Source: Longitalea luteola (GTDB taxonomy: Bacteria; Bacteroidota; Bacteroidia; Chitinophagales; Chitinophagaceae). From it: a stretch of 64,000 nt of DNA. The notes under the pieces are model-generated. The model was not told the origin of the DNA, ran no database searches, and was given only the letters and a program-made list of their open reading frames with translations. How positions within the stretch are numbered: position 1 is the stretch's first letter; each line of letters starts with the position of its first letter. Below are positions 4,642 through 61,666 of the stretch, in pieces. The translations under genes and the position numbers were made by a program. The stretch covers positions 124,001-188,000 of the forward strand of contig NZ_JAFIQX010000002.1 of NCBI RefSeq assembly GCF_017356035.1, read 5' to 3'.

Positions 4642-4923
4642 AATGTGCTAATCTGCTAATGTGCTGATGTGCTGATGAAATACACCCTGCGCGAATTCAA
4701 TGTGCTAATTTGCTGATGTACCAATATGCTAATGAAATCCACTGCAGCGCGAATTCAATGTGCTAATCTGCTAATGTGGATGTGCTGATGAAATACACCC
4801 CTGCGCGAATTCAATGTGCTAATTTGCTGATGTGCCAATATGCTAATGAAATCCACTGCAGCGCGAATTCAATGTGCTGATCTGCTAATGTGCTGATGTG
4901 CTGATGAAATACACCCCTGCGCG
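4642..4923 (+). repeat. Tandem array of five 56-58 bp monomers built from 8-bp words
   Basis: Five monomers alternate as A-B-A-B-A: 4642-4698, 4699-4756, 4757-4812, 4813-4870 and 4871-4923. Each begins AATGTGCT and the first four end in GCGCGAATTC. Inside each monomer are 8-bp words such as TAATGTGC, TAATCTGC and TGATGTGC. A and B types differ at fixed positions (AAATACACC versus AAATCCACTG), so the dimer of about 115 bp is the unit that was duplicated. It starts 7 bp after the stop codon of the small membrane protein. Confidence 0.9.
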
Positions 4924-4925
4924 CA

Positions 4926-5170
4926 GGCCAATGGGCAATGGTCAATACGCAATTGGCAATTTTAACCCTTACTTCTGCCTGATGATTACCAGCGACAGTT
5001 TGAATAGGCGATACGCAATTGGCAATTCATACCCAATTTTTTGGCCCGCTGTTTAAGCGTAAATCACTTAATCTTTTGGCAGGTATAACAGCAACAAAAA
5101 AGGCTCCATTAAGAAGCCTTCAATTCTTTAGGTCTGTATTTTGTGGCCTATTGTCTATTGCTTATTGCCG
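4926..5170. repeat. Inverted pair of CAAT heptad arrays
   Basis: Left array at 4926-4960: five 7-bp words GGCCAAT, GGGCAAT, GGTCAAT, ACGCAAT, TGGCAAT; the last two recur at 5012-5025. Right array at 5147-5167 carries the reverse type: CCTATTG, TCTATTG, CTTATTG. The two orientations enclose a terminator hairpin at 5095-5122. The remaining 4961-5193 sequence shows no coding potential. Confidence 0.8.
5095..5122 (-). terminator. Rho-independent terminator of the DUF6089 gene
   Basis: On the reverse strand the stem AAGGCT / AGCCTT with a short loop is followed directly by six T, 72 bp after the stop codon of the outer-membrane protein gene. Confidence 0.75.
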
Positions 5171-5193
5171 TTTTGATTAGGGGTTAGGGGGTA

Positions 5194-6048
5194 TTAAAAC
5201 CTTGTAGCCGGACAACCCACTTTTTTGTCTTTGTGATAGCTTGGCAAACCGGCAATACGTTTATACTGATCAATAAATGAACGTACTGTAACAGTGAGGG
5301 CCATATAATAAAAGCCGTCTTTTACATTCGCATTACCACGGGGCGTTTTAGCAGCAGGATAAGCGCCCTGCCCAACCTCATCACCGCGATATGCCAGATC
5401 AACAGCCGTTTGCCCCTTTGCAGCAAATAAAACGCCCTGGTCTGCATATTCTGAACTTACATCATCCAGGTAATCAGTAAACAACTTGCGGTAGCCGAGT
5501 TCCAGTCCAACCCTGATATCCTCCGTAATAACATAGGTAGCGCCAATGCCGAGCGGTATATTGAACTGCGTGAGTTTATAGTCTTTTTTACCCGGTATAA
5601 TTCCCTGTCCCTCGGTGCTTAATGGTTTCAGGTAAGTTTTAGTGCCATCTTCCGTATGGGTATAGGGTTTGAAATTATACAATCCCACCCCGGCAAATAC
5701 ATATGGGGTGATCCAGGAATTGTTCAAACTTAATATATTGTATTGCGCGCCAAGCTCCCATTCAAATACTTTGGTAGCAAAATTCAGGTTACGTCTTTGC
5801 ATGCCCGGGCTGCCTTTTTTATCGTCAGCCTGCAGGGAAGTGAGCGTAAAGTAAGTGCGGGCGGTAAAATGTTCCGACAGATCATACTGAGCGCCGAATG
5901 ACCCCAAGAACCGGGCCTGTTTAAAGGTTATATTCTTCTCCTGCAGATCTCCCTGGTAATTGGCAATTCCCAACCGGGCTGCAAAGTGAAAATTCTGTGC
6001 AACGGCTGCCAGGGGCATACAACATAACAGCGTGATAATCTTTCTCAT
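5194..6048 (-). CDS. DUF6089-type outer-membrane beta-barrel protein
   Basis: A 284-residue protein with a signal peptide (MRKIITLLCCMPLAAVAQ) and alternating amphipathic strands: FHFAARLGIANYQGDLQ, FLGSFGAQYDLS, WELGAQYNIL, TPYVFAGVGLYNFKP, FNIPLGIGATYVI and RVGLELGYRKLFTDYLDDVS. This pattern, with the GDLQ turn after strand one and the TDYLDDVS sequence, is that of the DUF6089 family of small outer-membrane barrels in Bacteroidota, some of which belong near gliding/T9SS functions. It should sit in the outer membrane; no ligand is known. It is monocistronic, with its own promoter box and terminator. Confidence 0.8.
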   Translation of the reverse strand: MRKIITLLCCMPLAAVAQNFHFAARLGIANYQGDLQEKNITFKQARFLGSFGAQYDLSEHFTARTYFTLTSLQADDKKGSPGMQRRNLNFATKVFEWELGAQYNILSLNNSWITPYVFAGVGLYNFKPYTHTEDGTKTYLKPLSTEGQGIIPGKKDYKLTQFNIPLGIGATYVITEDIRVGLELGYRKLFTDYLDDVSSEYADQGVLFAAKGQTAVDLAYRGDEVGQGAYPAAKTPRGNANVKDGFYYMALTVTVRSFIDQYKRIAGLPSYHKDKKVGCPATRF

Positions 6049-6084
6049 TAATATTCAATTAGGATAATATACGTTCAACGGCCA

Positions 6085-6114
6085 CAAATCTACGATCTGG
6101 TCGACTACTTTAAA
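6085..6114 (-). promoter_or_regulatory. Promoter of the DUF6089 gene
   Basis: The reverse strand carries a perfect TAnnTTTG box (TAGATTTG, 6085-6092), 37 bp upstream of the ATG. An imperfect -33 element (TTTA) lies at 6111-6114. Confidence 0.55.
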
Positions 6115-6237
6115 CGGTATGAGCATGAATTTATTACACAGTCCCTGGCCCCCTGAAGGGGGTTAATGATCGCATAAATTGACCGGAAAATGCGCATAGG
6201 GAATGCGCTTCAGCAACCCTTTTATGTTTTTCGAGCT

Positions 6238-6333
6238 GCGTTTTGTGTGCCGCTTTGCGTGTGGCGTGTGGCGTTTTGCGTTCCGCGTTTTGCGTTTTGC
6301 GTTTGGCGTTCTGCGTATGGCGTTTGGCGTTAA
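6238..6333 (+). repeat. Array of about 14 heptads, consensus GCGTTTK
   Basis: From 6257 onward eleven uninterrupted 7-bp words follow in register, all starting GCGT: GCGTGTG twice, then GCGTTTT, GCGTTCC, GCGTTTT, GCGTTTT, GCGTTTG, GCGTTCT, GCGTATG, GCGTTTG, GCGTTAA. Three imperfect words precede them. The last word overlaps the stop codon (TAA on the reverse strand, 6330-6332) of the DUF4440 gene. The rest of the gap 6049-6237 holds only the promoter box at 6085. Confidence 0.9.
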
Positions 6334-6755
6334 CTGCTATGATCTGCCACGATCACCCAGGTTCCGTTGATCTTTCTGAAGAGAAGGTTATAATGGCCGC
6401 CCACATCGCCGATCTTTCGCTGTAAATTCCATTTGCCCACGACAAAATAAAACTCCGGCGACAGGCGCTGTACTTTTATCAGGTCAAATGTCAGCTTGCC
6501 CATGGCGTCGGCACTGCTGTAATTCTTTTTATAATTCGTCAGGGTGTTCTGATAACCATAGGTCACCCCGCTTTTTCCAATGAACATGAGGGAGTCGCTG
6601 TTCCAGTATCCTTTCATGAATGCTTCAAGGTTACCACTGTTCCAGGCCGTGGTTTGATCGCCTAAGATCTTCCGGATCGCCTGTTCATCATTGTCCTGGG
6701 CCCTTGTCTGTTGGATCAGGAAGAAGGCAAGAATGAATAACGGTAAGCTTCTCAT
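6330..6755 (-). CDS. Secreted DUF4440/SnoaL-like protein
   Basis: A 141-residue protein with a signal peptide (MRSLPLFILAFFLIQQTRA) followed by an NTF2-like cone fold: DEQAIRKILGDQTTAWNSGNLEAF is the classic first helix pair of DUF4440/SnoaL-like proteins, and the strands FDLIKVQRLS, YFVVGKWNLQ and HYNLLFRKINGTWVIVADHSS complete it. Such proteins are often small ligand-binding or calcium/calmodulin kinase association-type domains; the periplasmic ones have no known role. I chose the ATG at 6755 because it opens the signal peptide; a longer frame to 6872 starts in repeat sequence. The stop codon lies inside the GCGTTTK array. Confidence 0.75.
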   Translation of the reverse strand: MRSLPLFILAFFLIQQTRAQDNDEQAIRKILGDQTTAWNSGNLEAFMKGYWNSDSLMFIGKSGVTYGYQNTLTNYKKNYSSADAMGKLTFDLIKVQRLSPEFYFVVGKWNLQRKIGDVGGHYNLLFRKINGTWVIVADHSS

Positions 6756-6836
6756 AAATGTAGTTGTTTTTCTAAAGATAAAGCAAAGTCGACAAGTTGA
6801 CGGGCTTGACAATTCATAAGGATGAACGCAGTGCGC

Positions 6837-6864
6837 CTGGCATCTGGTAACCGGTAACCGGTGA
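6837..6864 (+). repeat. Heptad array CTGGTAA/CCGGTAA
   Basis: Four 7-bp words in register: CTGGCAT, CTGGTAA, CCGGTAA, CCGGTGA. The same word family appears at 44526-44550 and, inverted, at 44447-44473; related words occur at 21901-21938. Confidence 0.7.
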
Positions 6865-6865
6865 C

Positions 6866-6905
6866 AAAACAAAAGCCCGAAAGAATCGCAACTCTTTCAG
6901 GCTTT
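6866..6905 (-). terminator. Terminator of the TIM-barrel gene
   Basis: Reverse-strand hairpin with arms AAAGCC-t-GAAAGA and TCTTTC-g-GGCTTT (one internal mismatch) followed by TTTTG and TTTTG, starting 24 bp after the stop codon at 6929. Confidence 0.7.
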
Positions 6906-6928
6906 CTGATCTATTACCAGTATAAAAA

Positions 6929-7801
6929 TTACATTTTAAATTTCTTCATATACTTAGCATCCACTTCCACGCTTTTCAGCGGGGTGCTGTTATCGTAACG
7001 CTCCTGTTCTACGATATAATATTCCAATCCTTTGGCTGAACCGGCTTTCAGGATCTTTTTAAAATCAATGCTCCCGGTACCCAGGTCTACAGAGGCATCG
7101 TGCTCTTTGGCATCTGCGCCCTTTTTGCGGTCTTTCACGTGGCACAGCTTCCAACGGCCGGGGTATTTATTAAACCAGGCTATAGGATCGGCGCCGGCGG
7201 TAACCACCCAGTAAATATCCATTTCAAAATCAACCAGGTCGGCATTGGTATTTTGCATCAGAACTTCATGCGGCAGCTGGCCTTCCATTTCCGTAAAGCT
7301 GTAGCCGTGGTTGTGATAGGCAAAACGCAATCCGTTCTTTTTACAGATCTCGCCGCAGGCATTGAATTTCTCAGCAGCCTTTTTAAAATCATCAATTGAT
7401 TTGTTGGCCCCGCCCAGGCTTGGACAGATCAAATATTTCATTCCTATTTCACCGGCCTGTGCAGCCTTGGTTTCAAAATCTTTATTGATATTACAATGGC
7501 TCGAAACGATGGTCATGCCCAGCTCATCCATATATTTTTTGAATTCCTTATTGGTCATTCCCCAGAACATACCGTCTTTGCCTTCATAACTTTCAATTTG
7601 CTTATATCCGAAGCCAGCTACCTGTTTCAAAACACCCTTTGGATCTTTGGGCAGGTCGCTGCGCAGGGAATATAACTGCAATCCGAACTTTTTAATAGAC
7701 GCCCTGGCTTCAGCATCCTCCATGGAAAAAACGGACCTTGAAACGAGTAATCCAGAAGCCAATGTTCCGGTTGCTTTGAGAAAACTTCTTCTGTTGTACA
7801 T
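6929..7801 (-). CDS. Tat-exported sugar phosphate isomerase/epimerase-like TIM barrel
   Basis: A 290-residue AP-endonuclease-2/xylose-isomerase-like barrel preceded by a twin-arginine signal (NRRSFLKATG). Barrel signatures: KKFGLQLYSLRSDL, GYKQIESYEG, IVSSHCNI, LRFAYHNHGYSF, VDFEMDIYWV, WKLCHVKDRK and LEYYIVEQERYD, which supply the Glu/Asp/His/Glu metal site. Related periplasmic proteins are found in Bacteroidota next to GMC oxidoreductases and DUF1080 proteins. By analogy with TIM-barrel subunits of C-glycoside lyases, it may cleave or isomerise 3-keto sugars. It lies 92 bp downstream of the dehydrogenase small-subunit gene on the same strand and may be the last gene of that operon. It is a paralogue of the proteins at 12299 and 20892. 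Confidence 0.85.
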   Translation of the reverse strand: MYNRRSFLKATGTLASGLLVSRSVFSMEDAEARASIKKFGLQLYSLRSDLPKDPKGVLKQVAGFGYKQIESYEGKDGMFWGMTNKEFKKYMDELGMTIVSSHCNINKDFETKAAQAGEIGMKYLICPSLGGANKSIDDFKKAAEKFNACGEICKKNGLRFAYHNHGYSFTEMEGQLPHEVLMQNTNADLVDFEMDIYWVVTAGADPIAWFNKYPGRWKLCHVKDRKKGADAKEHDASVDLGTGSIDFKKILKAGSAKGLEYYIVEQERYDNSTPLKSVEVDAKYMKKFKM

Positions 7802-7893
7802 GAAATTGGTTGTGGGTGATTAAAATCAAATACTGAATATCGAAGCGATGATCGCCTCAACATTCAGTATTCTTTATTTAAAAACGAACGATA

Positions 7894-8469
7894 TTATAAA
7901 GCCCAGGCTTTGTCGCCTTTTTTGTAAGGAATACAGGCTTCAAAACGGCCCGGAACTGGCACATAACGCAAAGCCTTGGTAGCGCCGGGTTCCGATGTAA
8001 AGTATCCTAACAGGGTCAGCTGTTTCATCATGGTGAAATAATGCGCTGCAGCATCTTTTTCTTTCTTCTTGGCATATTCCTTTTGCTCTTTGTCGATGGC
8101 AGTCAGCAGCTCTTTACGTTGTTCAGGCGTTATTTTCATAAACCCGTTGCCGCTGTATTTCTTCTTCGCTTCTTCATTCAGCTTGTTCATTCCTTCCAGG
8201 AACACCTTCTGATCTTCTTCTTTGTAGCAATCCTTAACCATAACGGTCATGAATGTACCTACCTTGGCTTCTTTGGCGCCGGGAGTATCCGTAGCAGGAA
8301 TGATGGTTTCTGCCACTTCATCGAGGTAAGCAATATCATCGGCTGTAAAGTCAACGGACTGGCCAATTTTTTTATCAGTGCTGGTGCAACCGCTCAGAAA
8401 GAATTCAGCCCCTATTACCGTTCCCCCCAACAACAAAGCAACACGGGATAAAGCGTCTCTTCTGTTCAT
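7894..8469 (-). CDS. Gluconate 2-dehydrogenase subunit 3 family protein (Tat lipoprotein)
   Basis: A 191-residue protein with a Tat signal and lipobox in one leader: MNRRDALSRVALLLGG, ending FFLSGCTSTD. The mature part (DDIAYLDEVAETIIPATDTPGAKEAKVGTFM begins the domain) matches the gluconate 2-dehydrogenase subunit 3 family. In characterised FAD-dependent glucose and glucoside-3-dehydrogenases this small subunit carries the Tat signal for the folded GMC subunit, which itself has none. The GMC gene at 8633 lies 163 bp upstream on the same strand and lacks a signal, as expected for this hitch-hiking export. I infer an inner-membrane or periplasm-facing complex with the GMC protein. It is the only such small subunit in the window although there are two GMC proteins. 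Confidence 0.88.
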   Translation of the reverse strand: MNRRDALSRVALLLGGTVIGAEFFLSGCTSTDKKIGQSVDFTADDIAYLDEVAETIIPATDTPGAKEAKVGTFMTVMVKDCYKEEDQKVFLEGMNKLNEEAKKKYSGNGFMKITPEQRKELLTAIDKEQKEYAKKKEKDAAAHYFTMMKQLTLLGYFTSEPGATKALRYVPVPGRFEACIPYKKGDKAWAL

Positions 8470-8601
8470 AATTATTAATTTGAAGTATGAATCTATTTGA
8501 GAAATTGAAATTAATTTAAAGTCTTTCGATCAGTTAACCTGCCTGATAATAGTCGGGCTTCCCACATAGAACCATTATCACAACTTGTCCCGCTTTGCGG
8601 G

Positions 8602-8632
8602 ATTATCAAATTAGCAAATTATCACATTAGCG
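8602..8632 (+). repeat. Octad array ATTATCAA/ATTAGCAA ending at a stop codon
   Basis: Four words in register: ATTATCAA, ATTAGCAA, ATTATCAC, ATTAGCG. The array abuts the stop codon (8633) of the first GMC gene. Confidence 0.75.
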
Positions 8633-10348
8633 TTACAGGTTTCCTTTCTTTAATTCACTTACCGCAAAATCAGCAGCCCGGGCCGTAAGCGCCATATACG
8701 TTAACGACGGGTTCTGGCAGGCTGATGATGCCATACAGGCGCCATCGGTATTGAACACATTCTTTACTTCATGCATCTGGTTATGTCCGTTCAGCACTGA
8801 CGTTTTAGGATCTCTCCCCATGCGGGCAGTACCCATTTCATGGATACAGAATCCGGGCGGGGGATTATTATCGAATGTCTTTACATTTTTGAGTCCGGCT
8901 TTCTCGAGCATTTCCTTAGCGCTCTCCATCATGTCTTTGCGCATGATCTTCTCGTTTTCCTTAAACTCACAGTCGATGTCGAGTGTAGGCAGTCCGTATT
9001 TATCTTTCTTGTCTTTGTTTAACGTTACCTTGTTCTCATAGTAAGGTAAATGTTCACCCCAGGCAGCGATCTGCATCGTCCAGTTACCGGGCTCGGTAAG
9101 CTTTTCTTTCAGTTCAACACCAATGCCATCTGCATGATCAACGCGGCCGCGCTGGGCGCCGCCCTGGTAACCAAAACCGCGCACATAGTCGCTGCGTTTT
9201 GTTCTCTCATTGATGTTCCTGAAGCGGGGGATATAAATTCCATTTGGCCTTCTGCCATAATAGTATTGATCGGTAAAACCTTCAAATTCGCCCCGGGCGC
9301 CTACGCCATAGTGGTGATCCATCAAATTATGCCCTACCTGCTGGCTGCTGTTACCCAATCCATTTGGAAACGCATCCGAAACAGACTGTAATAATATTTG
9401 TGCAGTGCCCAGCGTAGATGCATTCAGGAAGATGATGCGTGCATAATACTCTTCTGTTTTCATGGTCTCGGCATCGAGGATGCGAACACCGGTAGCACGT
9501 TTTTTATCTTTATCATACAGCACTTCCAGCACAATGGAATTCGGCCGCAGGGTCATATTACCGGTAGCACGGGCTGCCGGCAAAGTAGCCGAGTTACTGC
9601 TGAAATAACCGCCGAACGGACAACCCTGGTGGCATCTGTTGCGGTACTGACAGGGCCCGCGGTCACCTACCTGTTTGGTATGGTTTGCAGAGCGGCCCAT
9701 GATCATTACGCGGTCGGCAAAATTTTGCTTTATGCTGGCAGCTACATGTTTCTCGAGGCAATTCATTTCCATGGCAGGCAGAAACTCACCGTCGGGCAAC
9801 TGCGGTAAACCATCTTTATTGCCATTGATACCGGCGAATTTCTCTACATAACTGTACCAGGGTGCCAGGTCTTTATACCGAATGGGCCAGTCAACACCAT
9901 AACCGTCCTTGGCATTAGCTTCAAAATCGAGGTCACTCCAGCGGTATGATTGACGACCCCACATCAGCGAACGGCCACCTACATGGTATCCGCGGATCCA
10001 GTAGAACTTCTTGACCTGGTTGTATGGATTTTCCAGGTCGTTGACAAAGAACTTCTTTGAAACTTCATCAAAAGCATAACATTTGCTTTGGATAGGGCTG
10101 TTCTTCCTGTCTTCTTCTGACTGTTTCAAATGGTGGGGCAATTCCCAGATATTTTTCTCTGTTCCGGCGTAGTCTTTAATGTGTTCAACATTTCTACCCC
10201 GTTCCAGCACCAATGTTTTCAAACCTTTTTCGCATAATTCCTTTGCGGCCCAGCCACCACTTATTCCCGATCCGATCACAATGGCGTCATAGGTATTTTG
10301 TGCGGTTGCTTTCGTGTTCAGGTGTACGTTTAAAGAGTCTCCTGGCAT
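8633..10348 (-). CDS. GMC family oxidoreductase (probable glucoside/sugar 3-dehydrogenase catalytic subunit)
   Basis: A 571-residue flavoprotein. FAD-binding GxGxxG is in AIVIGSGISGGWAAKEL near residue 25. A pattern C-x5-C-x3-C-P (CQYRNRCHQGCP, about residues 233-244) matches the cysteine motif that binds a 3Fe-4S cluster in FAD-glucose dehydrogenases. The C-terminal catalytic His lies in HEMGTARMG (about 503) and Asn in QNPSLTYMA (about 546). There is no signal peptide, in keeping with export together with the Tat-bearing small subunit encoded just downstream. The family oxidises sugar hydroxyls and passes electrons through Fe-S to a cytochrome c; a cytochrome c gene lies at 17387. The start is taken at ATG 10348; GTG at 10354 is possible. 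Regiospecificity for C3 is inferred from the DUF1080 and TIM-barrel neighbours. Confidence 0.88.
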   Translation of the reverse strand: MPGDSLNVHLNTKATAQNTYDAIVIGSGISGGWAAKELCEKGLKTLVLERGRNVEHIKDYAGTEKNIWELPHHLKQSEEDRKNSPIQSKCYAFDEVSKKFFVNDLENPYNQVKKFYWIRGYHVGGRSLMWGRQSYRWSDLDFEANAKDGYGVDWPIRYKDLAPWYSYVEKFAGINGNKDGLPQLPDGEFLPAMEMNCLEKHVAASIKQNFADRVMIMGRSANHTKQVGDRGPCQYRNRCHQGCPFGGYFSSNSATLPAARATGNMTLRPNSIVLEVLYDKDKKRATGVRILDAETMKTEEYYARIIFLNASTLGTAQILLQSVSDAFPNGLGNSSQQVGHNLMDHHYGVGARGEFEGFTDQYYYGRRPNGIYIPRFRNINERTKRSDYVRGFGYQGGAQRGRVDHADGIGVELKEKLTEPGNWTMQIAAWGEHLPYYENKVTLNKDKKDKYGLPTLDIDCEFKENEKIMRKDMMESAKEMLEKAGLKNVKTFDNNPPPGFCIHEMGTARMGRDPKTSVLNGHNQMHEVKNVFNTDGACMASSACQNPSLTYMALTARAADFAVSELKKGNL

Positions 10349-10359
10349 CTTCACTAATT

Positions 10360-10391
10360 TGATAATGTGATAATTCGATAATGTGATAATT
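10360..10391 (+). repeat. Octad array TGATAATG/TGATAATT upstream of the first GMC gene
   Basis: Words TGATAATG, TGATAATT, CGATAATG, TGATAATT in register, 12 bp upstream of the start codon. They are the reverse type of the ATTATCAA words found beyond the 3' end of the same gene. Confidence 0.7.
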
Positions 10392-10507
10392 GAAATACAA
10401 GAATAAAAGACGATTTCAATGGTAATAAGGCAGCGTGTAATTTAAATATTTTTAATTGTATTTAAGACACGGGAGACTGCCATTAAGTATGCTGCCCGGA
10501 CAAAAGC

Positions 10508-10564
10508 ATTATCAAGTTAGCTAACCTGCCTGCCGGCAGGCAGGTTATCGAATTATCACATTGG
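10508..10564. repeat. Perfect 24-bp palindrome flanked by octads
   Basis: A perfect palindrome (half AACCTGCCTGCC, 10523-10546) sits between octads ATTATCAA, GTTAGCTA on the left and GTTATCGA, ATTATCAC on the right. The block ends at the stop codon (10566) of the second GMC gene. A second copy of the palindrome lies at 16194-16215. Confidence 0.85.
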
Positions 10565-10565
10565 T

Positions 10566-12245
10566 TTACAGGTTTTGTTTTTTCAATTCACTTACCGCAT
10601 GGTCTGCGGCGCGGGCCGTTAATGCCATATAGGTAAGCGAGGGGTTAACGCAGGCTGCCGATGTCATACAGGCGCCGTCTGTTACATATACGTTGGGGGC
10701 GTCCCAAACCTGGTTATGCGCATTCAGCACCGAGGTTTTGGGGTCTCTGCCCATGCGGGCGGTACCCATTTCATGAATACCCATACCCATGAAATACTCA
10801 CTTTCAGTAGGTTTAACTTCTTTTAAACCGGCAGCGGTAAGCATTTCCACGGCGTCGTTCTTCATATCCACCCGCATTTTCTTTTCGTTTTCCTTCAGTT
10901 CGCAATCGATGGCCAGTACCGGCAGGCCCCATTTGTCTTTTTTCGATTTGTCGAGGGAGATCCTGTTCTCGTGGTAAGGCAGAATTTCGCCGAAAGCGGT
11001 CATGCCCAGCGTCCAGGGACCGGGTTCACTCAGGGCGTTCTTGAGTTCTGCCCCTATGCTTAATTCTGCGATCTGGCGGTTCCAACCCTGGCGGCTGGCG
11101 CCACCCTGGTAGCCAAATCCACGGGTATAATCCCTTTTATCACTGCCCACATTTCTAAAGCGGGGAATATAAAATCCGGTTGGCCGGCGGCCGAAATAGT
11201 ATTTGTCCTCATATCCTTCGGCAATACCTTCAGCGCCTACGCGGAAGTGGTGGTCCATCACATTATGGCCCAGTTCTCCGCTGCTGCTGCCCAATCCGCC
11301 AGGCCAAACATCGGTGGCAGAGTTGAACAATACCCAGGTGCTGTTGAAGGCGGAAGCGCACAGGAATACCAGTTTTGATTTGAATTCGTAGGTTTTATTT
11401 TCCTGCGCATCCATTACTTCAACGCCGGTAGCTCTTTTCTTGTCTTTATCGTACAATACTCTTGTTACAATGGAGAATGGACGGAGGGTTAAATTACCGG
11501 TTGCCATGGCGGCCGGCAAAGTAGAAGACTGGGTGCTGAAATAACCGCCGAACGGACAGCCCAGCCAGCATTTGTTGCGGTACTGGCAATTCGTTCTGCC
11601 GGGTAAAGGCTGCGTGATATTAGCTACGCGGCCAATAAATAAGTGACGCTGGCCTTTATAGTGCTGTTTAAGACGGGCAGCAACATCTTTTTCAACGCAG
11701 TTCAACTCCATGCCGGGTTGAAACTGTCCGTCGGGTAAAACAGCGAGGCCTTCTTTAGTACCGCTGATACCGGCAAATTTTTCAACATAATCGTACCAGG
11801 GCGCAATGTCTTTATAGCGAATCGGCCAGTCAACGGCAATCTTTTCTTTGGCATTGGCTTCAAAATCGAGGTCGCTGAAGCGATAGCTTTGACGGCCCCA
11901 CATCAGCGAACGGCCGCCCACATGATAGCCCCGGAACCAGTCGAACCGTTTTGTCTCCGTATACGGGCAATCCTTTTCGTTGGTCCAGTAATTCAGGTTC
12001 GTTTCATTCAATGGATAATCCCGGTTCAATACGGGATATTCTTTGATCATTTCCTGGGTCTTACCACCGCGATGGGGAAATTCCCAGGGGGCCTTGTTGG
12101 CGTTTGTATAACCTTTTACGTGCTCGATGTTTTCGCCGCGTTCGAGTAACAGTACTTTTAATCCTTTTTCGGTTAACTCCTTTGCAGCCCAGCCGCCACT
12201 GATACCAGACCCCACTACAATAGCATCATATACATTATCAGCCAT
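10566..12245 (-). CDS. GMC family oxidoreductase, paralogue of the gene at 8633
   Basis: A 559-residue paralogue of the preceding flavoprotein with the same order of motifs: AIVVGSGISGGWAAKEL at the N-terminus, VGGRSLMWGRQSYR, the Fe-S type cysteine pattern NCQYRNKCWLGCPFGG, and the catalytic HEMGTARMG and VNPSLTYMA segments. It also lacks any signal peptide. The two copies are clearly alike over the whole length yet differ in the N-terminal insertions and substrate-facing loops, so they probably act on different glycosides or anomers. It is separated from the first GMC gene by 217 bp that holds a repeat block. Electron flow to a c-type cytochrome is inferred as for its partner. Confidence 0.88.
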   Translation of the reverse strand: MADNVYDAIVVGSGISGGWAAKELTEKGLKVLLLERGENIEHVKGYTNANKAPWEFPHRGGKTQEMIKEYPVLNRDYPLNETNLNYWTNEKDCPYTETKRFDWFRGYHVGGRSLMWGRQSYRFSDLDFEANAKEKIAVDWPIRYKDIAPWYDYVEKFAGISGTKEGLAVLPDGQFQPGMELNCVEKDVAARLKQHYKGQRHLFIGRVANITQPLPGRTNCQYRNKCWLGCPFGGYFSTQSSTLPAAMATGNLTLRPFSIVTRVLYDKDKKRATGVEVMDAQENKTYEFKSKLVFLCASAFNSTWVLFNSATDVWPGGLGSSSGELGHNVMDHHFRVGAEGIAEGYEDKYYFGRRPTGFYIPRFRNVGSDKRDYTRGFGYQGGASRQGWNRQIAELSIGAELKNALSEPGPWTLGMTAFGEILPYHENRISLDKSKKDKWGLPVLAIDCELKENEKKMRVDMKNDAVEMLTAAGLKEVKPTESEYFMGMGIHEMGTARMGRDPKTSVLNAHNQVWDAPNVYVTDGACMTSAACVNPSLTYMALTARAADHAVSELKKQNL

Positions 12246-15954: not shown

Positions 15955-16240
15955 ATATACGAGGAACCAAGAACCAAAAAATAAATACCAAACGCCAAAT
16001 GTCAGAACCATTTTGATTTGAGTTTTTTTGGAACCTGAAGTTTGAGTTTTAGACTTCCCCTTTGGAGTTTGCGATTTGGGATTTGAGATTTTTTTGGTTC
16101 TTGTTATTTGTGATTTGGAATTTCGGTGTTGGGATTTCGGCAATTTCGAGATATAGCGGAAACTGGGATTTGAGCAAATCTCGAAATCTCAAAACCTGCC
16201 TGCCGGCAGGCAGGTCTCGAAATCAGAAATCAGAGATCGT
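15955..16240. repeat. Word-repeat block with embedded palindrome between two sugar genes
   Basis: The gap 15943-16276 is filled by degenerate 7-8 bp words. From about 16050 forward words dominate (TTTGGAG, TTTGCGA, TTTGGGA, TTTGAGA, TTTGTGA, TTTGGAA); from about 16175 the reverse type takes over (CAAATCT, CGAAATCT, TCGAAATC, AGAAATC). Within the reverse part lies a perfect 22-bp palindrome (16194-16215, half ACCTGCCTGCC) shared with 10523-10546. Confidence 0.8.
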
Positions 16241-23186: not shown

Positions 23187-23247
23187 ATTGGTCGCCGAAA
23201 CACCTAAAAAATTACAGGCGAAGACCTTTTTTTGCTGAAGTCTTAAA

Positions 23248-23394
23248 TCAGAAGTCAGGCGTCGGAGGTCAGCCGTCAGAAGATCCCTCTCTTTTCAGCC
23301 TTCAAAACTTTTCTTGCATCTGCCCTCCAGCTTCCGGCCTCGGGCTTCCGACTTCCGGCCTCCGATCTCCGTTTTCAGACCTCAGATTTCCGTA
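23248..23394. repeat. Inverted pair of heptad arrays (GTCAGNN and NNTCCGN)
   Basis: The left arm (about 23252-23286) reads in heptads GTCAGGC, GTCGGAG, GTCAGCC, GTCAGAA. The right arm (about 23331-23393) reads CTTCCGG, CCTCGGG, CTTCCGA, CTTCCGG, CCTCCGA, TCTCCGT, TTTCAGA, CCTCAGA, TTTCCGT. The right words are reverse complements of the left type, so the block can fold into a long imperfect hairpin. It fills most of the gap between the divergent sigma factor and ArsC-like genes. Confidence 0.85.
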
Positions 23395-25624: not shown

Positions 25625-25972
25625 ATGAAAAAGCAATCGTTAGTAACGTTACTTGCTGGTCTGTTGATCCAGGCCATGCTGTTTGCCCAGGATAAAAAGC
25701 AGGCGCCGCCGCCATGGGCTTCCGACAAAGGATGGTGGATGGTTGAAAGTAATATCCATACGCCCAAACAAAACACCGTTTACTTCTTTAACAACGATGG
25801 AGTGCTGGTGTACAAAGAAAGAGTGGAAGGCAAACGCATCGATCCGGCTAAAAAAAGAACCCGCATGCACTTAAAGCGGGCACTCGAAGCATCGCTACTG
25901 GCCTGGGAAGAAAAGCACCAGTTTAGGGAAAATGAGGCATTTGTAAGGAATAGTCTGATGGAAAATAAGTAG
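25625..25972 (+). CDS. Small secreted protein of unknown function
   Basis: A 115-residue protein with a clear signal peptide (MKKQSLVTLLAGLLIQAMLFAQ). The mature part begins DKKQAPPPWASDKGWWMVESN, followed by a short beta segment (NTVYFFNNDGVLVYKERVEGKRID) and a basic helical end (KRTRMHLKRALEASLLAWEEKHQ). I do not recognise the family. Similar short proteins with a GWWxxESN start and an N-T-V-Y-F-F-N-N-D strand seem to be conserved in Chitinophagaceae, but that is memory and not a search result. It lies upstream of a LytS/LytTR pair and could be its target or merely a neighbour. An inverted heptad array starts 8 bp after its stop codon. Confidence 0.65.
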   Translation: MKKQSLVTLLAGLLIQAMLFAQDKKQAPPPWASDKGWWMVESNIHTPKQNTVYFFNNDGVLVYKERVEGKRIDPAKKRTRMHLKRALEASLLAWEEKHQFRENEAFVRNSLMENK

Positions 25973-25979
25973 TCCCAGA

Positions 25980-26042
25980 GGTTTGAAGCCGGAGGTCTGA
26001 GGTCAGAAGTCTGATGAATCCGCAAACGTCAGACTTCCGATA
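25980..26042. repeat. Compact inverted heptad array
   Basis: Five forward heptads GGTTTGA, AGCCGGA, GGTCTGA, GGTCAGA, AGTCTGA (25980-26014), a 14-bp spacer, then reverse heptads TCAGACT, TCCGATA (26029-26042). AGTCTGA and TCAGACT pair exactly. It starts 8 bp after a stop codon and shows the forward-spacer-reverse design most clearly. Confidence 0.85.
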
Positions 26043-38953: not shown

Positions 38954-39066
38954 CTGATTTCTGATTGCTGATTGCTGATTTTGAGATTTTGGGATTTGCC
39001 GTTTGTTTGAACTTCAAAAGCAATTGCCGGGATCAGGAAATCCCGAAATCAAAAATCCCGAAATCA
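38954..39066. repeat. Inverted word array ending inside a stop codon
   Basis: Forward words CTGATTT, CTGATTG, CTGATTG, CTGATTTT, GAGATTTT, GGGATTTG (38954-38998), a spacer, then reverse words GGGATCAG, GAAATCCC, GAAATCAA, AAATCCC, GAAATCAA (to about 39067). The last word contains the TGA stop (39064-39066, reverse strand) of the zinc peptidase gene. Confidence 0.85.
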
Positions 39067-39915
39067 ATTCAGTGAAGGATCTCTAAAGGTATTGCCCTGG
39101 CTCAGATCACCGGTTTCAAATCCTTTTTTAAACCAGTACATCCTTTGGGCCGATGTACCATGAGTAAACGATTCGGGAACCACGCGCCCCTGCGCTTCTT
39201 TTTGCAGACGGTCGTCCCCAATGGCATTGGCCGCATTCAGGGCCTCCTCTATATCATTCTCTTCCAGAATGTTCTTCATGCGCTGAGCGTGATGCGCCCA
39301 TACGCCGGCCAGGAAATCGGCCTGTAATTCAAGCTTAACGGAATATTTATTGTATTCTTCCTCACTCAACTGCTGACGTAACCGATGCATTTTATCGCTG
39401 GTGCCATTCAGTTTCTGAATATGATGACCCACTTCATGTGCTACCACATAGGCCATGGCAAAATCACCAGGTGCATGTAAATGATTCTGCATATCCTCAA
39501 AGAACGACAGATCGATATACACTTTTTGATCGCCCGGGCAATAGAACGGTCCGGTGGCCGAACCTGCCATACCGCAGGCGCTTTGCACAGATTGCCTGAA
39601 AAGTACCAGGGTAGGTTCAGCATACGTTTCGCCTGACTGTGAGAACAGTTTGTTCCAAACATCTTCTGTATCAGCCAGTACTACTTTTATGAAACTCGCT
39701 CTTTCATCATCCAGCTTTTGCTCTTCTGCACTCATTTCCTGCGCAGGCCCCTGCTGGGGCAAGGCCTGGGGAAGCTCGGCAGTGTCGCCGCCCAGGAACA
39801 GCTTTACTAAAAGGACAATAACGCCAATAATACCACCGCCTACCGCCAGCCCGCCGCCCGAAAAACCTCTCCGGTCTTCCACATTGGAGCTTTCACGCCG
39901 TCCGATCCATTTCAT
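39064..39915 (-). CDS. YpfJ-type neutral zinc metallopeptidase
   Basis: A 283-residue protein of the YpfJ/putative neutral zinc metallopeptidase family. The N-terminus MKWIGRRESSNVEDRR followed by a glycine-rich membrane helix (GLAVGGGIIGVIVLLVKLFLG) is characteristic; the catalytic domain has the family pattern VWNKLF, SACGMAGSATGPFYCPGDQKVYIDLSFF, the zinc motif in YVVAHEVGHHIQ and QADFLAGVWAHH with the third ligand. Despite the complete HExxH site no substrate is known. It has its own promoter with both elements at 39932-39959. The stop codon is embedded in a word-repeat array. Confidence 0.9.
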   Translation of the reverse strand: MKWIGRRESSNVEDRRGFSGGGLAVGGGIIGVIVLLVKLFLGGDTAELPQALPQQGPAQEMSAEEQKLDDERASFIKVVLADTEDVWNKLFSQSGETYAEPTLVLFRQSVQSACGMAGSATGPFYCPGDQKVYIDLSFFEDMQNHLHAPGDFAMAYVVAHEVGHHIQKLNGTSDKMHRLRQQLSEEEYNKYSVKLELQADFLAGVWAHHAQRMKNILEENDIEEALNAANAIGDDRLQKEAQGRVVPESFTHGTSAQRMYWFKKGFETGDLSQGNTFRDPSLN

Positions 39916-47860: not shown

Positions 47861-47994
47861 AGATTTGGAGATTTTGAGATTTTGAGATTTTGAGATTTGG
47901 AAACTTGAGATTAGGACACTTTGAGATTAGGAAAATTCAAACTTATATAAATCTCGAAATCCCAAAATCAGCAATCAGAAATCCCGAAATCAGG
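47861..47994. repeat. Inverted octad array (AGATTTTG / AAATCTCG)
   Basis: Forward octads AGATTTGG, three AGATTTTG, AGATTTGG (47861-47900), then looser AGATTAGG words; after a spacer the reverse type AAATCTCG, AAATCCCA, AAATCAGC, AATCCCG, AAATCAGG (47950-47994). It fills the gap 47806-48052 between mgsA and the uvrB promoter. Confidence 0.85.
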
Positions 47995-54016: not shown

Positions 54017-54017
54017 G

Positions 54018-54668: not shown

Positions 54669-54676
54669 AACGCGCT

Positions 54677-57467: not shown

Positions 57468-57495
57468 CTACCACAAACTTGTATAGCTGATTGAT

Positions 57496-57528
57496 AATCC
57501 TCCCGGTACAAACCGGGGGGATTTTTTT
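57496..57528 (+). terminator. Terminator of the secreted aromatic-rich protein gene
   Basis: Stem AATCCTCCCGGT / ACCGGGGGGATT (one G-T pair) with loop ACAA, followed by a T-run (TTTTTTT). Confidence 0.9.
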
Positions 57529-57630
57529 GTGTTGCCAACATTCCGCCTGAATGGCGCAACACCAAAGATTTTTTTGGAAGCATTGATTTTTAAATGATTG
57601 CTGCAGGATTTTTATGTAAACATTTCAGTT

Positions 57631-57687
57631 TTACAGAAATATTTTTGATCTTTCGGCGTTCTTTTTTACAGAAACTCGTTTCTGTAA
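57631..57687 (+). promoter_or_regulatory. Operator-like palindrome TTACAGAAAC-TC-GTTTCTGTAA with upstream half-site
   Basis: Perfect 10-bp arms (57666-57675, 57678-57687) end 21 bp before the ATG at 57709. A half-site TTACAGAAA is at 57631-57639, 35 bp earlier. Position and symmetry fit binding of a dimeric regulator over the promoter. Confidence 0.65.
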
Positions 57688-57708
57688 TTATACCCTTAAT
57701 CTTATACT

Positions 57709-58221: not shown

Positions 58222-58253
58222 CCGGCGGAAAATTATAATTCGATCACTATCGT

Positions 58254-58290
58254 AAACGGCTATCTGTGATGTACATAGATAGCCGTTTTT
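58254..58290 (+). terminator. Terminator after the lipocalin-like gene
   Basis: Perfect 12-bp stem AAACGGCTATCT / AGATAGCCGTTT (58254-58265, 58277-58288) followed by TT. Confidence 0.85.
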
Positions 58291-58292
58291 AA

Positions 58293-58321
58293 TTTGATAT
58301 TAAAAGGATGCTGTAATTTCA
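58293..58321 (+). promoter_or_regulatory. Promoter of the DsbA-like gene
   Basis: TTTG (58293-58296), 17-bp spacer and TAATTTCA (58314-58321), which keeps TAnnTTT of the -7 consensus but not the final G. The ATG follows at 58329. Confidence 0.45.
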
Positions 58322-58328
58322 CAGTATT

Positions 58329-58979
58329 ATGAAGCCTGTGATCGTATATTGTTATGACGCTTACTGCAACTGGTGTTACGGATTCAGTCCGGTTATGGAA
58401 CAAATTGCCAAGGACTTTACCGACAAAGCACAATTCGAAGTGCTTTCAGGTGGTATGATCCTGCCCGAATCACCGAAACCAATAAGTGTGATGGCCGATT
58501 ACTTTGTAAATAATTGTGCAACAGTTTCAGCGCATACAGGAGCCGCATTCGGCGAAGACTTTCTATGGCATATTAAAAATCCTGAGCTGAGCGATTGGTT
58601 CCCCAACTCCGAAAAACCGGCTATTGCCTTATGTATATTTAAAGACTATCACCCTGACAGGCAGGTGGCATTCGCTGCAGACCTGCAATATGCCTTACAG
58701 TACGAAGGCCGCGATCTGTGTGATAACGAAGCATACCGGCATTTACTGGAGAAATATACCATTCCGGCCGATGAATTTTATACCCTGCTGAACGATCCTT
58801 CCTATAAGGAAAAAGCGTATCATGAGTTCAGTGTGTGCCGCCGACTGCAGATAACCGGTTACCCGGCAGTATTATTGCAGGTAAATGAATCGAAGTTCAT
58901 GATGCTGTCATCGGGTTATACAACTTATGAGCTATTGCGTGAACGGATCCTGAATGCATTGCAGGGATCACAGGCTTAA
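58329..58979 (+). CDS. DsbA/FrnE family thioredoxin-fold protein
   Basis: A 216-residue protein of the DsbA family (FrnE-like branch). The active-site motif is CNWC in VIVYCYDAYCNWCYGFSPVMEQI; an alpha-helical insertion follows (KPISVMADYFVNNCATVSA), and the cis-proline loop is in LQITGYPAVLLQVNESKFMML. There is no signal peptide, so it is a cytoplasmic thiol-disulphide oxidoreductase or a protein that binds thiol adducts. Its own promoter follows the terminator of the previous gene, and the kinase gene starts 17 bp after its stop, so the two are probably co-transcribed. Confidence 0.85.
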   Translation: MKPVIVYCYDAYCNWCYGFSPVMEQIAKDFTDKAQFEVLSGGMILPESPKPISVMADYFVNNCATVSAHTGAAFGEDFLWHIKNPELSDWFPNSEKPAIALCIFKDYHPDRQVAFAADLQYALQYEGRDLCDNEAYRHLLEKYTIPADEFYTLLNDPSYKEKAYHEFSVCRRLQITGYPAVLLQVNESKFMMLSSGYTTYELLRERILNALQGSQA

Positions 58980-58996
58980 TTATAAAATCATTCATA

Positions 58997-59950
58997 ATGA
59001 TCGTTACAATAACAATGAACCCGGCAGTTGATAAAAGCACCGTTGTAGACAAGCTGGTGCCGGAGAAAAAAATGCGTTGTGGTGAGCTCATTACAGAAGC
59101 GGGTGGTGGCGGCATTAACATCAGTAAAGCTATTAAAGAACTGGGCGGAGAGTCTCTGGCTGTATTTCCTTCCGGTGGAATCAATGGGAAACTGATCGAG
59201 AACTATCTTAGTGAACGGCAGATCAGTTTTAAAGGCATTCCCGTGAAACAGGAGACCCGTGAGAATATTGTAGTTCGGGAAACCAGTACTAATTCTCAAT
59301 ACCGTTTTGTAATGCCCGGCGCTTCGCTTTCGGAAGAAGAAGCCCAGGCCTGCTTTGAACTGCTGCAGCAATTGCAGCCCAGGCCAACCTGTATCGTTGC
59401 CAGCGGCAGCCTGCCGCCCGGTTTACCCGAAAACTTTTTCGGCCAGCTGGCCAAAGTGGTCAGAAAACTGAACGCGAGATACATTATCGATACTTCGGGC
59501 AAGCCATTGCAACTGGCGGCCAAAGAAGGCGTGTTCCTGTTAAAACCCAATCTGGGAGAGCTTTGTGCGCTGGTAGGTAAAGAGCATCTGGATGTAAATG
59601 AAGTGGATGATGCGGCCATGGAAGTGATCAAAGAAGGCCGTTGCGAGGTAATGGTGGTTTCGCTGGGACCCTCCGGCGCCCTGATGGTTACCCGCGACGG
59701 CTGTGAACATGTTCCAACCCCTACCGTGCAAAAACAAAGCACCGTGGGCGCCGGCGATAGTATGGTGGCCGGCATGTTATGGATGCTGGAACAGGGAAGT
59801 TCATTGTCTGAAATGGTGCGCTTTGGCGTGGCCTGCGGAACGGCAGCTACCATGAATCCCGGCACGCAATTGTTTAAGAAGCAGGATGTGTACCGCCTGT
59901 ACGACTGGATCAATAAATATGCCGATAAGTATAAAATGAAGCTTGATTGA
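58997..59950 (+). CDS. PfkB family hexose kinase (1-phosphofructokinase type)
   Basis: A 317-residue PfkB-family sugar kinase of the hexose/tagatose-6-phosphate kinase branch: VTITMNPAVDKSTVVDKL at the N-terminus, the substrate loop EAGGGGINISKAIKELGG, and the ATP/anion-hole motif STVGAGDSMVAGMLWMLE with the catalytic Asp. Length is normal. It phosphorylates a sugar phosphate such as fructose 1-phosphate, fructose 6-phosphate or tagatose 6-phosphate; the exact substrate cannot be read from sequence. No PTS or sugar transporter gene is adjacent. It is probably the second gene of an operon with the DsbA-like gene. Confidence 0.88.
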   Translation: MIVTITMNPAVDKSTVVDKLVPEKKMRCGELITEAGGGGINISKAIKELGGESLAVFPSGGINGKLIENYLSERQISFKGIPVKQETRENIVVRETSTNSQYRFVMPGASLSEEEAQACFELLQQLQPRPTCIVASGSLPPGLPENFFGQLAKVVRKLNARYIIDTSGKPLQLAAKEGVFLLKPNLGELCALVGKEHLDVNEVDDAAMEVIKEGRCEVMVVSLGPSGALMVTRDGCEHVPTPTVQKQSTVGAGDSMVAGMLWMLEQGSSLSEMVRFGVACGTAATMNPGTQLFKKQDVYRLYDWINKYADKYKMKLD

Positions 59951-60078
59951 AGGGGCAGTGGAGTTCGCACCGGGCTATCGCATTTGGTAGTGGGCGGTCC
60001 TCGCCCGTCTCAGGCGCAGGGTAGCGGTGCAATGGAGCCGGCCGAAATTCGCTATTAACTTGAACCATCTTGAGCCCA

Positions 60079-60189
60079 TTGACGATTGTCGATTGTCGAT
60101 TCATGATTGACGAAGATGAGAACTCATTCACTTAAGAAATAAAGCAGTGAACTGTGAACTTTAAACTTTGAACTTTAAACTGTGAACTG
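60079..60189 (+). repeat. Two heptad arrays (TTGTCGA and TGAACTK)
   Basis: Array 1, 60079-60113: TTGACGA, TTGTCGA, TTGTCGA, TTCATGA, TTGACGA. Array 2, 60148-60189: TGAACTG, TGAACTT, TAAACTT, TGAACTT, TAAACTG, TGAACTG, six words in exact register. They fill the gap between the kinase and amidohydrolase genes; 59951-60078 shows nothing else. Confidence 0.9.
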
Positions 60190-60249
60190 TTTTTTACCAT
60201 CGGTTTTTCATTTTTGCCAAATGCCCCTAATTTGGTAAAAATTCCATGC

Positions 60250-61341
60250 ATGAAGAAGCAGTTTATCCTTGCCGGTGCCTTATTGAGCCTGTACACAGCC
60301 AGCGCGCAAACCGCGCATATGGATTTTGAAAAATATTCTCCCACCTCCACACTGGTAGTACCGGAGCATAAAGTGACCCGTGCCCGTTTTCCGTTTATAG
60401 ATGTGCACAATCACCAGCGCAGTATGTCGGCAGGCGATCTCAAAAGCCTGGAAAAAGAAATGGATAAACTGAATATGGCGGTAATGGTGAACCTCAGCGG
60501 CGATAACGGCAACAGACTGCAAAGTAAGATCGACAATATCCGCGCTGCCAGTCCCAAACGATTTATTGTTTTTGCCAATGTTAATTTTAGTGGCATCGGT
60601 GAACCCGGCTGGACTGAAAAAGCAGTAAAGCAACTGGAAGAAGATGTAAAGTATGGAGCCAACGGATTGAAAGTATTTAAAAACCTGGGACTTTCTGTAA
60701 AAGACAATACCGGCAAAAGAGTAACAGTCGATGACCCACGGCTCGATCCCATCTGGGCGAAATGCGGTGAATTAAAAATTCCGGTACTGATCCATACGGC
60801 CGACCCCAAACCTTTTTGGGATCCGGAAGACGAGCACAACGAACGCTGGCTGGAGATCGCTTCGCATCCCGGCCGCAAAAGAAGTGATAACGATCCTGCG
60901 CCCTGGGAGGTTTTGATCGAAGAACAACACCGCATGTTCAGAAAACATCTCCGCACCACCTTCATCGCGGCCCATTTTGGCTGGTATCCGAATAATCTGC
61001 CAAAGCTGGGAAATTTGTTAGATGAAATGCCGAATGTGGTGGTAGAATTTGGCGCCGTGATTGCAGAGTTGGGCCGCCAGCCCCGGATGGCGCGGCAGTT
61101 CTTTGAGAAATACCAGGATCGCATTTTATTTGGAAAGGACAGCTGGGTGCCGGAAGAATACGCCACCTATTTCAGGGTGCTGGAAACGGAAGATGAATAT
61201 TTCCCTTATCATAAAAAATACCATGCGTTCTGGGCGATGTACGGCATGGGACTTCCTGATGCCATCCTGAAAAAAATATATTACAAGAACGCCCTGCGCA
61301 TTATTCCGAATATTGATAAGTCGCAGTTCCCCACGGACTAA
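60250..61341 (+). CDS. Secreted amidohydrolase (Amidohydro_2 family)
   Basis: A 363-residue protein: signal peptide MKKQFILAGALLSLYTASA, then a TIM-barrel amidohydrolase. The metal site starts with HxH in FPFIDVHNHQRSM, continues with the His of VLIHTADPKPF and the His of FIAAHFGWYPNN, and ends with the Asp of ILFGKDSWVP. The family includes decarboxylases and lactonases of aromatic or sugar acids; the exported form is common in Bacteroidota but has no defined substrate. The start at ATG 60250 opens the signal peptide; the in-frame ATG 36 bp earlier would place charged residues before it. No promoter box matches perfectly, though CTAATTTG (60227-60234) is one base away. Confidence 0.85.
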   Translation: MKKQFILAGALLSLYTASAQTAHMDFEKYSPTSTLVVPEHKVTRARFPFIDVHNHQRSMSAGDLKSLEKEMDKLNMAVMVNLSGDNGNRLQSKIDNIRAASPKRFIVFANVNFSGIGEPGWTEKAVKQLEEDVKYGANGLKVFKNLGLSVKDNTGKRVTVDDPRLDPIWAKCGELKIPVLIHTADPKPFWDPEDEHNERWLEIASHPGRKRSDNDPAPWEVLIEEQHRMFRKHLRTTFIAAHFGWYPNNLPKLGNLLDEMPNVVVEFGAVIAELGRQPRMARQFFEKYQDRILFGKDSWVPEEYATYFRVLETEDEYFPYHKKYHAFWAMYGMGLPDAILKKIYYKNALRIIPNIDKSQFPTD

Positions 61342-61666
61342 AATCTAAATTTCTGATTTCGAGATTTTGAGATTTCGAGATTTATAAAAAGGTTTCACCC
61401 TGAGCAAATCATATATCTCGAAATCAGAAACCGTCAATTTCTTCGATTACTGGTTGTCGTGCAAATAACACATTCATGTCCGTTAGCCCTGCAACAGGCA
61501 TTGTTTCTTCTCATATCCAGTGTTTCAAATACTTTATTGAAGGGGTATTGACTGTAGCGGCTTTTCGTCCGGTTGCAATCCCGCTTCATCCTGCTATTAG
61601 TTGATATTGATCAGTTTTTACATTGGCGCTTTTTTTGATAATGTAATTTTATAAAAACTAACAGTT
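61342..61666. other. Gap between amidohydrolase and DUF1579 genes
   Basis: 325 bp. The first third is the inverted octad array; the middle (61431-61620) has no frame or structure I can support; the right end has a TAATTTTA box (61644-61651) with a TTG at 61624 that fits a promoter for the next gene. Confidence 0.5.
61350..61430. repeat. Octad array with perfect 16-bp inverted arms
   Basis: Left arm TTTCTGATTTCGAGAT (61350-61365) is exactly complementary to ATCTCGAAATCAGAAA (61415-61430). Between them more octads follow the left arm (TGAGATTT, CGAGATTT). The block begins 9 bp after the stop codon at 61341. Confidence 0.9.

Follow-up and report, generated by a model that had tools for sequence, protein, structure and literature searches.

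Dyad-symmetric arrays of degenerate 7- and 8-bp words in the gaps between genes of Longitalea luteola

The DNA analysed here, referred to as the window, comprises 64,000 nucleotides of Longitalea luteola, positions 124,001 to 188,000 of contig NZ_JAFIQX010000002.1 (C22:124001-188000), and belongs to a Niastella-type genome of 7.3 Mb (G000). Dyad-symmetric elements occupy the gaps between the genes of this genome, the convergent and tandem gaps more than the divergent ones. They are built of arrays of 7- or 8-bp words, in which mostly fixed core letters are combined with one to three free letters. We tentatively infer, at well under even probability, that these are arrays of recognition words placed with dyad symmetry at the borders of transcription units.

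The periodicity was measured in the gaps between the longest open reading frames (ORFs) of at least 80 or at least 100 amino acids; since these ORFs were used instead of the annotation, the start edges are rough. In C11:1-400000 of the same genome the intergenic self-match was 0.308 at lag 7 and 0.289 at lag 8, at most other lags above 1 it was about 0.26-0.27, and lags 14, 21, 28 and 16 were raised too; within the ORFs the values at lags 7 and 8 were about 0.25. A profile-free segment detector found 41 period-7 and 22 period-8 arrays in 243 C11 gaps (49.6 kb), none at periods 4-6 and 9-11, one at 12 and two at 13, with 14 and 16 raised. Five dinucleotide shuffles of these gaps gave no array at periods 7 and 8, and the same detector reported 7 and 4 arrays of the two periods in 351 kb of ORFs. 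Arrays of at least 22 bits, a level reached in one of 139 shuffled gaps, were present in 159 of the 355 gaps of 60-600 bp in C11:1-800000, namely in 43/71 convergent, 98/210 tandem and 18/74 divergent gaps. In the gaps of the window 36 profile matches of at least 18 bits were obtained as compared with 5, 4, 5, 2 and 5 in five shuffles; the family profiles were trained on G000, the window itself included, and the 18-bit cut-off gave 4 chance matches in 61 shuffled gaps. The sequence-only reading had proposed a wide family of degenerate 7- and 8-bp word arrays, often in inverted pairs. Such arrays were indeed found throughout the sampled genome, outside the window as well, with a periodicity well above that of the shuffled gaps.

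The inverted pairing was confirmed too. With a partner defined as one that beats 20 shuffles, an inverted partner was present on the inner side of 129 of 213 arrays and on the outer side of 20 of 112, and direct partners were found for 69/213 and 51/112, respectively. Neighbours of the same family within one gap numbered 52 where 10 were expected. At the core positions the two arms matched at the level of independent draws. At the free positions an alignment-based comparison gave 0.637 vs 0.550 for independent draws, and in 32 detected arm pairs the free letters of one gap agreed at 0.503 vs 0.531 between different gaps. The inverted arms share a word without being plain copies. Since they share the word family and not the free letters, a common binder fits better than copying; the idea that one arm arose by fold-back copying of its partner was rejected, as the free letters of the arms were no more alike than between gaps.

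The words were expected to differ freely between loci, and this was not the case. Greedy clustering on G000 placed 266 arrays in 864 kb into 21 clusters, 17 recurring and 4 singletons, certain clusters being variants of others. The main outward words are TAATGTGM, GATTTYGR, GGTTACY, AGTTCAW, AACGCNN, CAATNGN, AAGGCNN, GGTTACA, TTTGTGG and GAAGTAN, with AGTTATTS and GTTRACNN as further octamers. The three-word pattern TAATNTGNTAATNTGNTAAT had 242 matches in G000, none in the reversed control and 0 to 237 in nine congeners (one genome being only 61% complete). Core positions were mostly 90-100% constant in up to 59 loci, while the other positions varied within arrays among the same letter sets, and in 47 of 79 long arrays the mismatches were clustered in particular columns (p<=0.05). 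For the free letters of neighbouring words, several positions had an F of about 0, others had values of 0.1-0.4, and a few, which are set per array, reached 0.5-0.9. Lag-1 similarity was 0.807 vs 0.791 in permuted 7-mers and 0.840 vs 0.825 in permuted 8-mers, and the lag-2 similarity was also slightly above the permuted value. Because the core letters are fixed across loci and the free letters are nearly or weakly independent, slippage of one word fails as an explanation.

Two further origins were rejected. Consecutive array gaps shared a family in 17 of 144 cases vs 20.1 after permutation, so local spread is not indicated. A mobile element with conserved ends was dismissed since the word of family A (TAATnTGm) also occurs without its GAAATACAG-like tail, which accompanied 15/28 runs in C11:1-840000 and 3/95 runs in 80 named loci, two of the three (L056, L084) being Niastella. 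These loci are 80 of at least 117 stretches listed and were fetched for carrying TAATNTGN arrays; a small number carry the label of another phylum, and as one genome contributes several of the loci, they are not independent.

Arrays lying up to 60 nt from a gene edge have a polarity, i.e. the strand read from the edge into the gap is fixed for each family, both at stops and at starts. With C11:1-400000 as the training part and the remainder as the test, 87 arrays agreed, 8 disagreed and 31 were unscored; these are the figures of a tie-free repeat, an earlier run in which two families tied in training were set to plus by default having given 106:12. The reverse split gave 53:10, leave-one-gap-out 162:16 with 3 ties, and the arrays at 16-60 nt from the edge 22:4 and 24:6. 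Other Niastella genomes together with G140, a genome of another order, gave 106:13. In the 77 named loci outside Niastella family A gave 55:12, its unscored arrays being at locus ends (35), far from edges (13) or in ORFs (3). As there is a single edge-to-centre polarity near the edges, the two arms of a gap are mutually inverted. Of the 15 families for which the sequence sufficed, 14 have more G than C on the outward strand, two of them barely. Stop-codon content was rejected as the cause of the polarity, the inward strand of several families being richer in stops.

In the sequence-only reading the contact of arrays with stop codons was emphasized. Array ends were found at -8 to +5 of a stop in 56 cases, whereas 500 random placements averaged 27 and never exceeded 44; at starts there were 9 cases vs a mean of 20. 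The arrays thus approach stops more than starts. As an organising rule the contact did not hold, and the polarity into the gap from both kinds of edges takes its place. By eye, the stop codon apparently comes from the first array word at C11 708107, 735451 and 634038 and at 39064 in the window. The last residues of some proteins may accordingly be written by the repeat, the stop lying in the first array word, and gene calls in genomes of this kind should be treated with caution at their 3' ends, which can be repeat-written.

Orthologous gaps were compared in C11:660-840 kb. Between G000 and G007, the closest relative in the comparison, arrays were present in both genomes in 29 gaps, in G000 only in 6, in G007 only in 1 and in neither in 32; when gaps shorter than 90 bp were left aside, the numbers were 25, 3, 1 and 19. 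The Mantel-Haenszel odds ratio of occupancy was 114, resting on 5 discordant gaps. At the 29 common sites the family was shared in 17 vs 5.6 expected, and 12 sites had no common family. The comparison with G002 gave 10 gaps occupied in both, 3 and 1 in a single genome and 9 in neither, with the family shared in 4, and that with G006 gave 4, 0, 0 and 3, with the family shared in none. In the gap at 59950-60214 of the window, inspected by eye, TGAACTK stands in G000 and G007, a CGGCAAn-like word in G006 and GTTrACnn in G002. In 33 orthologous arms the identity was 0.926 at core and 0.681 at variable positions, and it was 0.835 in 27 array-free gaps; the retention of the core is only suggestive of constraint.

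Profiles derived from G000 were also applied to relatives, and because of this origin foreign words are missed. The 80 named loci contained 102 period-8 arrays, for which they had been selected, 46 period-7 arrays, for which they had not, and at most 6 of any other period. In 110 kb of G140, at a higher threshold, there were 9 and 6 arrays and none of another period. In a profile-free scan of whole stretches, coding sequence included, sparse Niastella genomes had few arrays of any period, and periods 7 and 8 were not dominant everywhere: G005 had 2 arrays at period 7, none at 8, one at 9 and 4 at 11, and G009 had 7 and 4 at periods 7 and 8 and 2 each at 6 and 9. One 50-kb stretch of E. coli K-12 had no arrays. 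In a sample of the phylum the TAATNTGN pattern was tallied in 10 of 247 genomes (9 other genomes in the table), mostly with 1-2 matches. Since its reversed control was equally widespread (9 genomes, 1-3 matches each), only G140 with 67 matches stands out.

In our judgement a recognition word bound side by side is the best fit to the format, the dyads and the division into core and free letters, although we would put it at well under an even chance. Each word would be a recognition unit, and a putative sequence-specific binder would sit side by side on consecutive words. The arms reading inward from both genes would then turn the transcription-unit border into a bound or insulating stretch. Several binder and word pairs might be interchangeable; since any of them would serve, the site would persist while the word family is exchanged, and letters and copy number could turn over because the free letters are unconstrained.

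Several observations speak against this proposal. Some 17 clusters would call for many binders. At distances above 60 nt from an edge, arrays had no orientation relative to the nearest stop (8:9, 11:11), and among the 36 window matches taken at any distance 25 agreed with the polarity and 11 did not. Families other than A gave 16:10 in the named loci, which is not significant. The related genus G011 had no arrays in 40 kb and some congeners are array-poor, e.g. G005 with 4.2 per 100 kb; the function therefore cannot be essential. Random words of the same family give a core identity of 0.931 under the detector, equalling the observed 0.926, thus the core identity alone shows no constraint. The conserved occupancy might be due to sites at which insertion is safe.

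The probability of a neutral process comes close to that of the recognition-word reading. The arrays would in this case be non-functional, self-propagating repeats, generated by replication or repair with a step of 7-8 nt and by template switching at inverted repeats in gaps that tolerate DNA, and the shared words would reflect a bias of the process. This explanation, possible though we consider it doubtful, agrees with the fast turnover and the patchy presence among congeners, with the word order, which by eye is not conserved between loci, and with the TAATnTGm arrays of distant Bacteroidota, which lack common flanks as shown by the rarity of the tail. Neighbouring words slightly exceed permuted ones in similarity, and in one gap (753651) a conserved CAAAGTTT adjoining an AGTTCAA array looks like a seed. 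Heptamer arrays with indels in 7-nt steps are in print for the cyanobacterium Cyanothece (PMC4679880). Such a process does not account for the polarity, however, which points to the gap centre near stops and starts alike. Most free positions are nearly uncorrelated or only weakly correlated between adjacent words, therefore word-by-word copying was not the main recent mode, and the arms of one gap are not copies of each other.

The enrichment at stops and in convergent gaps would also be expected if the arrays acted as RNA: both transcripts leaving a gene pair would carry a 5' arm richer in G and a 3' arm richer in C, and the long imperfect hairpin made of the two would stabilise or terminate the 3' UTR on either side. 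The G excess of the outward strand fits this, and array gaps of 80-260 bp folded below their shuffles with a mean z of -2.9 (n=81, 48 below -2) as compared with -1.2 in array-free gaps (n=90, 22 below -2); 118 hairpins with a median of 28 bp were found. Nevertheless, the variable positions of the arms match little or not above chance, so that pairing itself is hardly selected; the start edges show the same polarity, and 84 of the 213 arrays have no inner-side inverted partner above the shuffles. We regard RNA stem-loops as unlikely. Ordinary slippage microsatellites seeded separately in each gap are strongly disfavoured already and highly improbable, since the head-to-tail format and the slight lag-1 and lag-2 similarity are met by the lack of arrays at periods 4-6 and 9-11, the 17 recurring clusters, F of about 0 between adjacent words at several free positions, and the polarity.

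Two other candidates were dropped. Rho is loaded at YC dimers with a spacing of about 7 nt; the strand following the stop is G-rich, and the outward words TAATGTGA and TAATGTGC of family A, as read off, contain no YC. An RRM protein acting on GU-rich 3' UTRs was set aside because only some families are GU-rich and the polarity is found at starts too.

If the recognition-word reading were to be extended, the chromosomes of Bacteroidota might possess a set of short, mutually exchangeable recognition words that run inward from both edges and thereby mark and insulate transcription-unit borders; the mark would be inherited by site, the word being replaced and the format rather than the sequence conserved. 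We consider this generalisation improbable. Nearly half of the larger intergenic gaps sampled conform to one format, a 7- or 8-bp word with a fixed core and edge-to-centre polarity, and the word of family A recurs with the same polarity in other Bacteroidota. Mutational models can be told from functional ones by any of three features, the polarity, the split into core and free letters and the word exchange at kept sites, hence the old question why bacteria have heptamer repeats becomes directly testable.

Arrays in the window were located with Tandem Repeats Finder and/or the family-profile scan. Of 16 places listed in the sequence-only reading 14 were recovered in this way; 6837, where Tandem Repeats Finder reported just 2.4 copies of GGTAACC, and 44447, where it reported nothing, were not, both lying within ORFs of the mask and thus outside the coverage of the profile scan. 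The first of five family A blocks is a TAATnTGm octamer array at 4639-4677 (plus strand, 55 bits, found by both methods), followed on the same strand by four more within 4699-4906 (4699-4719, 4757-4778, 4813-4848 and 4871-4906; 30-48 bits). Up to 4906 these blocks form a 57/114-bp higher-order repeat with GAAATACAC tails; the nesting in the tandem repeat, with GAAATACACCCCTGCGCGAATTC-like spacers, covers 4642-4923, and a comparable one of 86-88 bp was seen at C11:145095-145304. A CAATnGn heptamer array at 4926-4960 (plus, 38 bits) is the left arm of an inverted pair with the reverse arm at 5146-5173 (minus, 29 bits). The GCGTTnn heptamer array at 6251-6333 (minus, 91 bits) reaches into the stop of the minus-strand ORF 6330-6872. 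Family A returns at 8602-8631 (minus, 46 bits), where the array stops 1 nt short of the stop codon of ORF 8633-10354, and at the start edge of this ORF at 10354-10390 (plus, 54 bits, tail GAAATACAAG), the inverted partner of the latter being at 10545-10562 (minus, 24 bits), 3 nt from the stop of ORF 10566-12245.

GATTTnGG/TTTGnGG words, scored as the TGTGGTT family, make the left arm at 16061-16123 (plus, 26 and 21 bits), and AAATCYCR and GAAATCA arrays with a CCTGCCTGCCGGCAGGCAGG palindrome between them make the right arm at 16176-16238 (minus, 32 and 30 bits). A GTCAGnn/GTCGGAn heptamer array at 23235-23282 (plus, 32 bits) is paired with the TCCGACT heptamer array at 23319-23392 (minus, 88 bits). 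The GAGGTCT heptamer array at 25975-26014 (plus, 44 bits) starts 2 nt past the stop of ORF 25625-25972. At 38954-38981 a CTGATTG heptamer array merges into a GATTTTGR octamer array at 38977-38997 (plus, 45 and 34 bits), and its right arm, the AAATCCCG octamer array at 39032-39065 (minus, 25 and 23 bits), enters the stop of ORF 39064-39915. The GAGATTTT octamer array at 47861-47901 (plus, 60 bits) is the left arm to an octamer and then heptamer array, AAATCYCR/AAATCAG, at 47949-47983 (minus, 35 and 31 bits). Two minus-strand heptamer arrays follow, ATTGTCG at 60076-60113 (49 bits) and TGAACTK at 60148-60190 (63 bits). The GATTTCGA octamer array at 61355-61383 (plus, 50 bits) lies 13 nt past the stop of ORF 60214-61341, and the short right arm ATCTCGAAATC at 61415-61425 (minus) scored 19 bits, near the chance level of the scan.

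The 20-bp palindrome CCTGCCTGCCGGCAGGCAGG occurs at 10525-10544 and 16195-16214, within arrays that belong to different word families, and is found again in several C11 array gaps; it resembles a separate REP-type element (repetitive extragenic palindrome) inserted into the arrays. A second recurrent hairpin stands beside family A arrays at 8579-8601 (minus strand CCCGCAAAGCGGGACAAGTTGTG) and in the C11 flanks at 293085 and 662713, where it reads CCCGrCTnAAGTCGGGACArGTTGTG. Certain array-gap centres, e.g. at 769992, contain by eye a G+C-rich hairpin with a T run as in intrinsic terminators. The region 28136-53358 is rich in DNA repair genes (UvrD/PcrA, a PIF1-like helicase, RecA, a UvrB-like protein and DNA polymerase I), and recA and polA are near each other in eight congeners.

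Among the known systems, the cyanobacterial short tandemly repeated repetitive (STRR) heptamers, reportedly described by Mazel et al. in 1990, are tandem heptameric words between genes; they are not known to have an octamer class, edge-to-centre polarity or inverted arms. The sequence-only reading named no Bacteroidota counterpart with inverted architecture; heptamer repeats as such have been published for this phylum. TAACTGA direct repeats were described in five Bacteroidetes, where some of them have further heptamers next to them, as well as in Cyanobacteria and Beggiatoaceae (MacGregor 2015, PMC4679880). They resemble the present arrays in being contiguous intergenic 7-bp words, strain-specific and at many sites per genome, with other heptamers adjoining (PMC4679880). 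The TAACTGA word is exact, however, its single-base variants are rarely repeated, and in Maribeggiatoa it lies mostly just upstream of starts (PMC4679880), whereas the arrays described here have degenerate set positions, words of 7 or 8 bp, many families and dyad symmetry, and prefer stops to starts. They thus have the contiguous intergenic 7-bp words at many sites of the cyanobacterial and Beggiatoaceae heptamers, plus an 8-bp class, and do not have an exact non-degenerate word. Long simple sequence repeats also show a heptanucleotide excess, which was explained by polymerase slippage (Mrazek et al. 2007, cited in PMC4679880); our arrays have the head-to-tail tandem copies but not adjacent copies identical by descent, and differ in the weak likeness of adjacent free letters and in the restriction to 7 and 8 bp. 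REPs, of 20-40 bp, and the mosaic elements (BIME) they form are likewise dispersed intergenic palindromic repeats (PMC3733652). In the present arrays no single palindrome is conserved across copies: only the word recurs, the arms vary in length and letters and match mainly at the core positions. Flanks and centres, by eye, are mostly different between loci, and the word order is not common to them in general. The literature search brought up no description of octamer arrays, of a shared vocabulary of degenerate words, of the polarity or of words being exchanged at kept sites, so that heptamer arrays as such are known while these four features are apparently new.

Operator and centromere arrays of ribbon-helix-helix proteins share with the present arrays the contiguous, unspaced, degenerate words of 7 or 8 bp in direct and inverted order, the boxes of MetJ, a protein of this fold, being 8 bp long. 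The parS sites of plasmid pSM19035 consist of contiguous unspaced degenerate 7-bp words (WATCACW) in direct or inverted orientation, each bound by one dimer of the ribbon-helix-helix protein ParB/omega, and at least four contiguous words are needed for full activity (PMC9499535). The likeness lies in these degenerate contiguous 7-bp words of either orientation; the difference is that parS, the centromere of a plasmid, has six sites and a single word (PMC9499535), while the arrays described here are chromosome-wide, employ many words and would be served by a putative binder.

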